Source: Lacunisphaera limnophila (GTDB taxonomy: Bacteria; Verrucomicrobiota; Verrucomicrobiia; Opitutales; Opitutaceae). From it: 64,000 bases of DNA. Positions 25,353 through 48,301 of this stretch are shown here, in pieces. Numbering within the stretch: the stretch's first letter is position 1; every line of letters starts with the position of its first letter. The stretch spans positions 1,178,001-1,242,000 of the forward strand of contig NZ_CP016094.1 of the NCBI RefSeq assembly GCF_001746835.1. The letters run 5' to 3'. A program made the position numbers and the translations under genes. The notes below the pieces were generated by a model. The model was not told the origin of the DNA. It searched no databases and saw only the letters and a list, made by a program, of their open reading frames with translations.

Positions 25353-25370
25353 CTGACAGACCGCTGTCAG
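25353..25370. promoter_or_regulatory. Palindrome TGACA-N6-TGTCA upstream of tag
   Basis: The perfect arms CTGACA and TGTCAG flank GACCGC, 27 bp upstream of the tag start. The same TGACA-N6-TGTCA with the same spacing occurs upstream of recA (47159-47176). CTGACA may also serve as a -35 box, with TGTTAT or TTATAC (25378-25385) as -10, so a bound repressor would cover the promoter. Confidence 0.55.
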
Positions 25371-25396
25371 GACCGCCTGTTATACCTCTCCCCACT

Positions 25397-25963
25397 ATGA
25401 AACGCTGTCCCTGGGCCGAGGCCGAGCTGCACCACCACTACCACGACACCGAGTGGGGCGTGCCGTCGCATGACGACCGCCATCTCTTCGAGCTGATCCT
25501 CCTTGAGGGCGCGCAGGCCGGCCTGAGCTGGGCCGCGATTCTGCACCGCCGCGAGGGCTACCGCGAAGCCTTGGATGGCTTCGATGCGGCCACCATCGCC
25601 CGCTACGACGAACGGAAACTGGCCCGCCTGCTGGCCGACCCGCGCATCATCCGCAACCGGCTCAAGGTGCAGTCCACGGTCATCAACGCCCGCGCCTTCC
25701 TCGCCATCCAGGCCGAGTTCGGCTCCTTCGACCGCTACCTCTGGGCTTTTGTCGACGGGCGACCCGTCCTGAACCACCGCCAGACCTCGGCGGAGGTACC
25801 AACCCGCACCCCGCTGTCCGACACCCTGAGCCGGGACCTGAAAACCCGCGGCTTCAAATTCGTCGGCACCACGATCTGTTACGCCTATCTGCAAGCCACC
25901 GGCCTGGTGAACGATCACCTCGTGTCCTGCCCGCGCCACGCCGCCTGCGCGCATCTAACTTGA
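25397..25963 (+). CDS. tag: DNA-3-methyladenine glycosylase I
   Basis: The enzyme removes 3-methyladenine from alkylated DNA and starts base-excision repair. It has 188 residues, the family's usual size. N-terminal CPW (Cys4) and HHYHDTEWGVP are present; the C-terminus NDHLVSCPRH supplies the other His and Cys of the expected zinc site. LLEGAQAGLSWAAIL and GFKFVGTTICYAYLQATG are also typical blocks. The start follows a promoter-like region containing a palindrome shared with recA, hinting at control by DNA damage. Confidence 0.96.
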   Translation: MKRCPWAEAELHHHYHDTEWGVPSHDDRHLFELILLEGAQAGLSWAAILHRREGYREALDGFDAATIARYDERKLARLLADPRIIRNRLKVQSTVINARAFLAIQAEFGSFDRYLWAFVDGRPVLNHRQTSAEVPTRTPLSDTLSRDLKTRGFKFVGTTICYAYLQATGLVNDHLVSCPRHAACAHLT

Positions 25964-47158: not shown

Positions 47159-47176
47159 TGACATACGGCTGTCATC
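47159..47176. promoter_or_regulatory. Palindrome TGACA-N6-TGTCA upstream of recA
   Basis: The perfect arms TGACA (47160-47164) and TGTCA (47171-47175) flank TACGGC, 43 bp before the recA start. It equals the site upstream of tag in arms and spacing. The CTGACA part could be the -35 box of the recA promoter, so a bound protein would repress. No TGTTC-N4-GAACA box was seen in the recA upstream region. Confidence 0.6.
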
Positions 47177-47218
47177 CCTCTCTGCTAAGCTGTCCCTTTA
47201 ACCCTTCACCCGCTTCCC

Positions 47219-48301
47219 ATGTCCAAAGCTGATAAGTCCAAGTCCGACTCGCGCGTCGCCACCGCCGAGAAATCCGCCAACCCCGCCCGCGAGAAAAACA
47301 TCGAGCTCGCTGTCTCCTCCATCACGAAGCAATTCGGCGACGGCTCGATCATGCGGCTGGGCAGCAACAGCAAGATGAAGGTCGAGACCCTCTCGACCGG
47401 CTCCCTGGCCATCGACCTCATGCTCGGCGTCGGCGGCCTGCCCAAGGGCCGCATCGTCGAGATCTACGGCCCGGAATCCTCCGGCAAAACCACCTTCTGT
47501 CTCAGCGTCATCGCCGAGGCCCAGCGCCAAGGCGGCCTCGCCGCCTTCATCGACGTCGAACACGCCCTCGACCCGAAATACGCCAAGGTCGTCGGCGTCA
47601 GCCTCGACGACCTCCTCGTCTCCCAGCCCGACTCCGGTGAGGACGCGCTCAACATCATGGAGACCCTCATCCGCTCCAATTCCATCGACGTCATCATCCT
47701 CGACTCCGTCGCCGCCCTCATCACCAAGGCCGAGCTCGACGGCCAGATGGGCGACATGACCATGGGCAGCCAGGCCCGCCTGATGTCGCAGGCCATGCGC
47801 CGCCTCACCTCCGTCGTCAGCAAGACGAACTGCGTGTGTATTTTCACCAACCAGATCCGCGAAAAGATCGGCGTGATGTTCGGCAACCCCGAGACCACCT
47901 CCGGCGGCCGCGCGCTGAAATTCTTCTCCTCCATCCGCCTCGACATCCGCCGCAAGGACCAGCTCAAGACCCCCGACGGCAAGGTCATCGGCAACCGCAC
48001 CAAGATCAAGGCGGTCAAGAACAAGGTCGCCCCGCCGTTCACCGAGTGCGAGTTCGACATCATGTACGACGAGGGCATCTCCGCCACCGGCTCGCTCCTC
48101 GACCTCGGCCTCGACCACAAGGTCCTGGAAAAGAAGGGCGCGTGGATCGCCTTCAACGGCGAGCTCGTCGGCCAGGGCCGCGAAGCCGCCAAGGAGGCCT
48201 TCAAGACGAACCCCGACCTCGCCGCCAAGGTGAAGGCCGGCATCCTCGAGAAGGTCAGCGTCAAGGGCGGCGACTCCGTCACCGGCGACAAGGAAGACTG
48301 A
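47219..48301 (+). CDS. recA: Recombinase RecA
   Basis: The 360-residue protein has all hallmarks: Walker [11 protein letters not shown] (about residues 83-92), [12 protein letters not shown], Walker [12 protein letters not shown], the DNA-binding loop 1 region [20 protein letters not shown] and [20 protein letters not shown], and a C-terminal acidic tail (TGDKED). RecA forms filaments on single-stranded DNA, pairs homologous DNA and drives self-cleavage of LexA. Upstream is a perfect palindrome shared with tag, so damage control is likely. Confidence 0.99.

Follow-up and report, generated by a model that had tools for sequence, protein, structure and literature searches.

The window analysed here, a stretch of 64,000 nucleotides covering positions 1,178,001-1,242,000 of the single 4,199,284-bp contig of Lacunisphaera limnophila (genome G000), contains two genes, tag and recA, each preceded by a perfect copy of the palindrome TGACA-N6-TGTCA, which we call the WYL box (Table 1). 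At recA the palindrome, TGACATACGGCTGTCA, occupies 47159-47174 and is separated by 44 bases from the ATG at 47219. The initial annotation had recognized this palindrome and placed its start correctly, but it carried the end two bases too far, to 47176, and gave the distance to recA as 43 bp. Its proposal that recA and tag, as repair genes, share an operator distinct from the LexA box of Verrucomicrobium, TGTTC-N4-GAACA, is borne out in that both boxes are there, and it was right that the LexA word is lacking upstream of recA: the 64-kb window contains no match to it with up to one mismatch. The recA gene is a TIGR02012 match (G000:C1:1225288-1226244), and the tag product matches its profile with E=3.3e-66 and 222.4 bits, slightly below the cut-off of 232.5.

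Table 1. Features of the recA and tag promoter regions (positions in the window)
Feature	Position	Strand	Description
WYL box TGACA-N6-TGTCA, recA promoter	47159..47174	+	perfect palindrome, 16 bp
Predicted extended -10 of recA, TGC-TAAGCT	47183..47191	+	TAAGCT starts 11 bp after TGTCA
recA, 360 aa	47219..48301	+	ORF
Second WYL box in the window, tag promoter	25354..25369	+	perfect palindrome match
Predicted extended -10 of tag, TGT-TATACC	25378..25386	+	one mismatch to TAnnnT
tag, DNA-3-methyladenine glycosylase I	25397..25963 (L002:1544-2110)	+	TIGR00624

Genes preceded by the box

Dinucleotide shuffles of the window give 0.02 matches on average, against the two observed. The whole genome contains nine copies of TGACA-N6-TGTCA, with no occurrence of the pattern reversed as a control, and eight of the nine lie just upstream of genes, as the scan suggested in the initial annotation was meant to reveal; neither a random placement over coding sequence nor a canonical LexA box at the repair genes of this genome was found. 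Five of the eight genes are repair or repair-like, the full set being recA, uvrA, uvrB, tag, an MmcB-like gene and genes assigned by Pfam to the glyoxalase superfamily (VOC), SnoaL_2 and DUF3224. The ninth box (L007) is located inside a 278-codon ORF that was not accepted as coding by a simple gene caller. Downstream genes were taken from ORFs and partly checked with profiles: the uvrB match exceeds its cut-off, and that of uvrA falls short because only the first 479 aa are covered. The boxed gene in L009 has no Pfam match of its own (it was tested with a longer start), and its product shares 67% identity, across 190 aa, with a congener protein that barely passes the MmcB-like Pfam cut-off (22.5 versus 22 bits). 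The recA palindrome is thus real, does not occur there by chance and is part of a regulon.

In the genus the box was found in 17 of 21 genomes at 96 places, against five for the reversed control, although in one genome (G015) its two boxes are matched by two control hits. Among the sites read, recA, uvrA, uvrB and tag are each boxed in at least two species; other boxed genes encode a Y-family polymerase, a MATE transporter, RmuC and an exonuclease of the ligase-associated type, the family match of the latter being below the curated cut-off. Another boxed gene, seen at L124:1541-1825 and in L306, encodes a Cdd1/helix-hairpin-helix protein.

Promoter architecture

Among 59 oriented site-gene pairs, which come from related species and so are non-independent, TAnnnT stands exactly 11 bp after TGTCA in 34, and any other offset occurs at most five times. 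This set excludes 14 of 68 distinct sites, which have no called gene within 75 bp, as well as loci L010-L027, and includes one pair (L095) from another genus. The 34 promoters with the fixed spacing have a consensus of approximately CTCC-TGACATAGGGY-TGTCAG-N7-TGnTAnnnT, with the TG of an extended -10 present in 27 of them. In 32 of the 34, no hexamer placed with a spacer of 16-18 agrees with TTGACA at more than two of its six positions. If TAnnnT is taken as -12 to -7, simple arithmetic makes the box span -39 to -24 and puts the position of the -35 hexamer between its two halves. Such geometry points to an activator that would straddle the -35 position and not to a repressor. The suggestion that CTGACA serves as the -35 of recA is untenable: it would lie 22 nt from TAAGCT (47186-47191), a -10 that is conserved across species, and this is outside the normal role of a -35. 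When the whole promoter pattern was sought in the L. limnophila genome with up to two mismatches, 12 matches were obtained against five controls, and therefore only the strict sites are informative.

The fixed -10 is present at recA (8/9), uvrB (2/2), tag (5/7) and other genes (19/23). It is absent from all pairs that involve uvrA (8/8), the exonuclease (3/3), the Y-family polymerase (2/2) or divergent yebC-like genes (5/5), which together with tag (2/7), recA (1/9) and others (4/23) make up the 25 pairs of 59 that have no TAnnnT at offset 11. The uvrA, exonuclease and Y-polymerase boxes (L006, L050, L054, L057, L053, L048 and others) may represent a second promoter architecture or mode. A separate observation concerns the start codon, which follows TGTCA by 22-24 bases in 16 of the 34 promoters with a fixed -10; the transcripts would therefore begin at or beside the start codon, and leaderless mRNAs are predicted, for instance at window positions 25370-25399.

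The candidate regulator

The LexA-independent (RecA-NDp/PafBC) promoters of mycobacteria carry the motif tTGTCRgtg-8nt-TannnT (PMC5656591). This is a motif with the same half-site at the same distance, and therefore attention turned to WYL proteins. The only PF13280 (WYL) match of the L. limnophila genome is located outside the window, on the minus strand at G000:C1:457077-458027. Pfam assigns HTH_11, HTH_PafC, WYL and WCX domains to the protein, and these, together with the order of secondary-structure elements in a model, give the architecture wHTH - three-helix bundle - WYL - WCX. The best relatives in a PDB sequence search are PafBC (6sj9, 1.6e-20) and DriD (8tp8, 7.8e-8). An AlphaFold model, made for the orthologue in L335, has a pLDDT of 83.9 and a pTM of 0.56, and the placement of domains in it is uncertain; Foldseek searches with this model also ranked PafBC and DriD first, at low TM-scores (0.27-0.49 in the top 11) and with a large rmsd. 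An alignment of the L335 orthologue and 16 further proteins, from loci of the scan described below, went into this model, and in it R34, R38, R201 and R204, which belong to the recognition helix and the WYL domain, are invariant in all 17 diverse sequences.

Three described WYL systems resemble the one proposed here. PafBC is a WYL-WCX-wHTH protein that controls recA and repair genes independently of LexA, and its P1 promoters share with L. limnophila the TGTCR half-site and the 11 bp to TAnnnT (PMC5656591, PMC11804915, PMC6789036). Compared with the PafBC motif, TGTCA and the spacing are present, a G follows TGTCA in 30 of 34 promoters and the next tg is not conserved; unlike that motif, the L. 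limnophila box has an additional inverted half, TGACA, 6 bp upstream. PafB and PafC form a heterodimer and the PafBC motif is non-palindromic, two features that its authors tie to each other (PMC6789036), whereas L. limnophila has a single WYL gene, which makes a homodimer likely; a palindrome for the product of a single WYL gene fits the same logic by analogy.

DriD of Caulobacter, described in a preprint (PMC12340889), is a WYL activator that works as a homodimer. Its pseudo-palindromic site, like the L. limnophila box, is centred on the -35: DriD sites straddle it at a fixed distance from the -10, and the -35 itself matches at one or two positions of six. The DriD site is ATACGAC-N7-GTCGTAT and the DNA used to test it contains GACA-N5-TGTC, to be compared with GACA-N6-TGTC in L. 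limnophila; the promoters differ, being those of didA, bapE, recJ, dnaG and driD in one case and of recA, uvrA, uvrB and tag in the other. SiwR of Mycobacterium smegmatis is a homodimer that activates transcription under genotoxic stress, recognizes an imperfect palindrome of 19 bp lying between the -10 and the -35, and depends on R38/R42 and R204/R207 (PMC10693628). The pairs R34/R38 and R201/R204 have the same spacing as these, in a comparison made by residue positions and outside an alignment with SiwR. As a difference, SiwR is reported to control its adjacent operon (PMC10693628).

With a probability of roughly 0.78, we consider the palindrome to be the operator of a homodimeric WYL-domain activator, for which the only PF13280 protein of the genome is the candidate. 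By analogy, the most economical arrangement would be a WYL homodimer with a symmetric operator, similar to DriD, which uses a downstream half and a -10 spacing of the PafBC type. Autoregulation through the box was rejected for the L. limnophila WYL gene, which has no box upstream within two mismatches.

Some WYL proteins, such as BrxR and CapW, are repressors. The L. limnophila protein, to which these two are structurally related, might likewise cover the -35 region and be released by single-stranded DNA or another ligand, as defence-linked WYL repressors are. The box does overlap the promoter core, and the uvrA-type boxes are not accompanied by a fixed -10. We nevertheless regard repression as unlikely: promoters that have no good -35 would need help, not blocking, the extended -10 follows at a constant distance, which is also the case in the PafBC and DriD promoters, and both of these nearest PDB sequence relatives are activators. 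The proposal in the initial annotation of a repressor other than LexA loses ground for the same reason, the geometry favouring an activator that straddles the -35.

Co-occurrence of the box and the WYL gene

The presumed pairing of the box with a WYL activator was followed through 100 Opitutaceae genomes that are at least 90% complete. Orthologues of the WYL protein are present in 43 of them, at a cut of 285 bits set after the gap below it had been seen (the next scores are 145 bits, for the second piece of the G112 copy, and 133), and the full promoter pattern is present in 38, the reversed control occurring once in total. Both are found in 36 genomes, the pattern alone in two and neither in 55, and seven of the 43 orthologue-bearing genomes have no strict pattern; the association in this cross-table has p=9e-18. 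Thirteen genera are mixed in WYL status, and none of 20,000 within-genus permutations (mean 27.5, maximum 34) reached the observed 36. The exceptions inside mixed genera are G018, G118 and G077, of which G118 has one box and no full WYL orthologue. In the genus itself, the four box-less genomes (G002, G005, G007 and G013, of which G007 is 80% and G013 69% complete) contain no PF13280 match.

This co-occurrence is partly trivial because the box usually adjoins the WYL gene: in many congeners a boxed VOC, SRPBCC-like or SnoaL-like gene follows it (most of these families were assigned by eye), and in G023, a member of another genus, the box beside the WYL gene precedes tag. Since recA lies away from the WYL gene, it provides the better test, and the only one that avoids the effect of adjacency. 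With zero or one mismatch, a box stands at recA in 14 of 42 genomes with the WYL gene, L. limnophila among them, and in one of 55 without it (p=1.9e-5, uncorrected for phylogeny). Three genomes without a recA match (G074, G103, G123) were left out of this count, one piece was used where recA was in several (G055, G102), and among shuffled upstream regions 0.8% come within one mismatch of the WYL box and 0.3% within one mismatch of the LexA box. The remaining 28 of the 42 genomes have no box at recA, and therefore recA has been captured in part of the family only.

The association at recA, far from the WYL gene, speaks against the idea that some other regulator recognizes the box and that boxed genes simply happen to be neighbours of the WYL gene. 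Their frequent adjacency could reflect a shared cassette, and G018 has boxes without a WYL gene. We find this very improbable, given that the box is generally found after the WYL gene and not before it in the loci that were read, that the L. limnophila WYL gene is itself unboxed and that half-site and spacing match known WYL promoters. As for G018, its genome is 99% complete and has boxes at uvrA and recA (L061, L062) with no detectable WYL orthologue; these boxes may be relics left after gene loss, or the WYL gene may be missing through an assembly gap. Another observation is a different WYL protein of G021, encoded directly before a gene that by eye resembles a Y-family polymerase (L101:1051-2926).

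LexA in L. limnophila and its relatives

A profile search of the L. limnophila genome with TIGR00498 (LexA) gave no match. The sole S24 match, at 20.5 bits, is below the cut-off, and the same protein scores higher as signal peptidase I (46.9 bits, also below the cut-off). TGTTC-N4-GAACA occurs in one perfect copy in the genome, at no repair gene, its position being by eye between lpxD-like and skp-like genes; the best match at recA has three mismatches. TIGR00498 matches are present in 3 of the 21 genus genomes (G011, G015 and G017) and, counting any match with E<=0.001, weak ones included, in 65 of the 100 family genomes. The lexA gene of G011 (L016:1498-3592) is near an ImuB-like gene (by eye), which suggests a mutagenesis cassette. 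Among 43 lexA loci of relatives, from which the partial loci L023, L024 and L027 were left out, 11 have a perfect TGTTC-N4-GAACA and none has a WYL box.

At recA, the WYL box is found in 10 of 20 genomes with WYL and without LexA, 4 of 22 with both, none of 41 with LexA only and 1 of 14 with neither (G018). The LexA box, with up to one mismatch, is found in 1 of 20, 4 of 22, 7 of 41 and 0 of 14 genomes of the same classes, and thus occurs at recA in some relatives of L. limnophila. Across the family, the WYL box follows the presence of the WYL gene and not that of LexA. The link between the capture of recA and the absence of LexA is weak (10/20 versus 4/22, p=0.049, uncorrected for phylogeny), and the presence of WYL against the absence of LexA gives p=0.056, a value not counted as evidence. 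No recA gene of 97 carries both boxes at zero or one mismatch; with only about two expected, this is not significant and mutual exclusion was rejected. A perfect LexA box lies at recA of G077 (L264), though TIGR00498 found no LexA there.

Genes such as recA, uvrA, uvrB and that of the Y-family polymerase are typical targets of LexA, which most of the family sampled has, but a divergent LexA or other S24 repressor that uses TGACA-N6-TGTCA as an alternative SOS box, one possibility raised in the initial annotation as a different LexA motif, is the least credible explanation of all and was rejected, since LexA was not found, the sole S24 match is weak and signal-peptidase-like, the lexA loci of relatives lack the box and the box tracks WYL. 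The SOS response known in Verrucomicrobia, which is run by LexA, has common targets such as recA; L. limnophila differs from it in having a different box and no detectable LexA.

The box beyond the family

A scan of a genome collection for CTGACATAGGGYTGTCA-N11-TAnnnT returned at least 119 stretches, with about one expected by chance at uniform base composition, and 80 of them were read. Among these 80 matches listed, most are Bacteroidota by name, and others belong to Verrucomicrobiota, Chloroflexota, a Spirochaetaceae MAG and more. An ORF scoring above 50 bits against the WYL profile is present in 38 of the 80 loci, and 30 of the 82 sites read begin -8 to +83 bp from the stop codon of a same-strand WYL gene, both counts again among the matches listed; a few of these loci belong to Opitutaceae itself. 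By eye, the downstream genes resemble VOC, DinB/DfsB, GyrI-like and SRPBCC genes, and similar ones surround siwR, whose neighbours include DinB/YfiT and, in some species, glyoxalase-like genes (PMC10693628). Judging by these arrangements, the pairing of regulator and box seems to be old and for the most part local, and control of recA and excision repair would be a feature of this family, as far as the matches listed for the one box variant searched can tell.

Proposed mechanism and significance

The box, its spacing, the weak -35, the co-occurrence of box and WYL gene and the lack of a detectable LexA are read directly in the genomes. From these sequences we infer that the WYL protein binds the box and forms a homodimer; activation, sensing of single-stranded DNA and induction by damage would carry over from DriD, PafBC and SiwR. 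The best reading is that of a WYL activator, probably one that senses single-stranded DNA, which is apparently local elsewhere and here has captured recA and excision-repair genes. Single-stranded DNA accumulating on damage would bind the WYL domains. Each half-site of TGACA-N6-TGTCA would then be occupied by one wHTH of the activated dimer, so that the two flank the -35 position, and the dimer would recruit the housekeeping RNA polymerase where a promoter offers an extended -10 (TGnTAnnnT, 11 bp after TGTCA) and no good -35. In this way recA, uvrB and tag would be switched on along with genes of stress or detoxification type. The mode of action may differ at uvrA, the MBL-fold exonuclease and the Y-family polymerase, where the -10 is off the fixed spacing.

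A broader proposal, for which we see even chances, is that TGACA-N6-TGTCA-N11-TAnnnT is a widespread, symmetric code of WYL activators shared by several phyla, that the non-palindromic motif of PafBC is the form of this code used by a heterodimer, and that in Opitutaceae-like bacteria a WYL homodimer took over the core of the damage response from LexA, with RecA being an output and not the sensor.

LexA is missing from some bacterial lineages (PMC13148647), and UmuDAb has been suggested as a LexA analogue in Acinetobacter (PMC3978071). Proposed here is a different replacement of LexA, a WYL activator, which can be tested at single promoters. Among the matches listed in a literature search that covered titles and the openings of abstracts, with subscription papers mostly outside it, neither the box nor a WYL-run damage response of Verrucomicrobia is named. 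The symmetric box suggests a way in which the PafBC promoter, itself asymmetric, is related to the DriD site, and as a DNA code it can be used to search for WYL activators outside Opitutaceae. A family that has a LexA box at some recA promoters and a WYL box at others makes such rewiring traceable among close relatives. For L. limnophila, its promoters suggest that a different type of switch runs the DNA-damage response in this bacterium, in which no LexA was detected.
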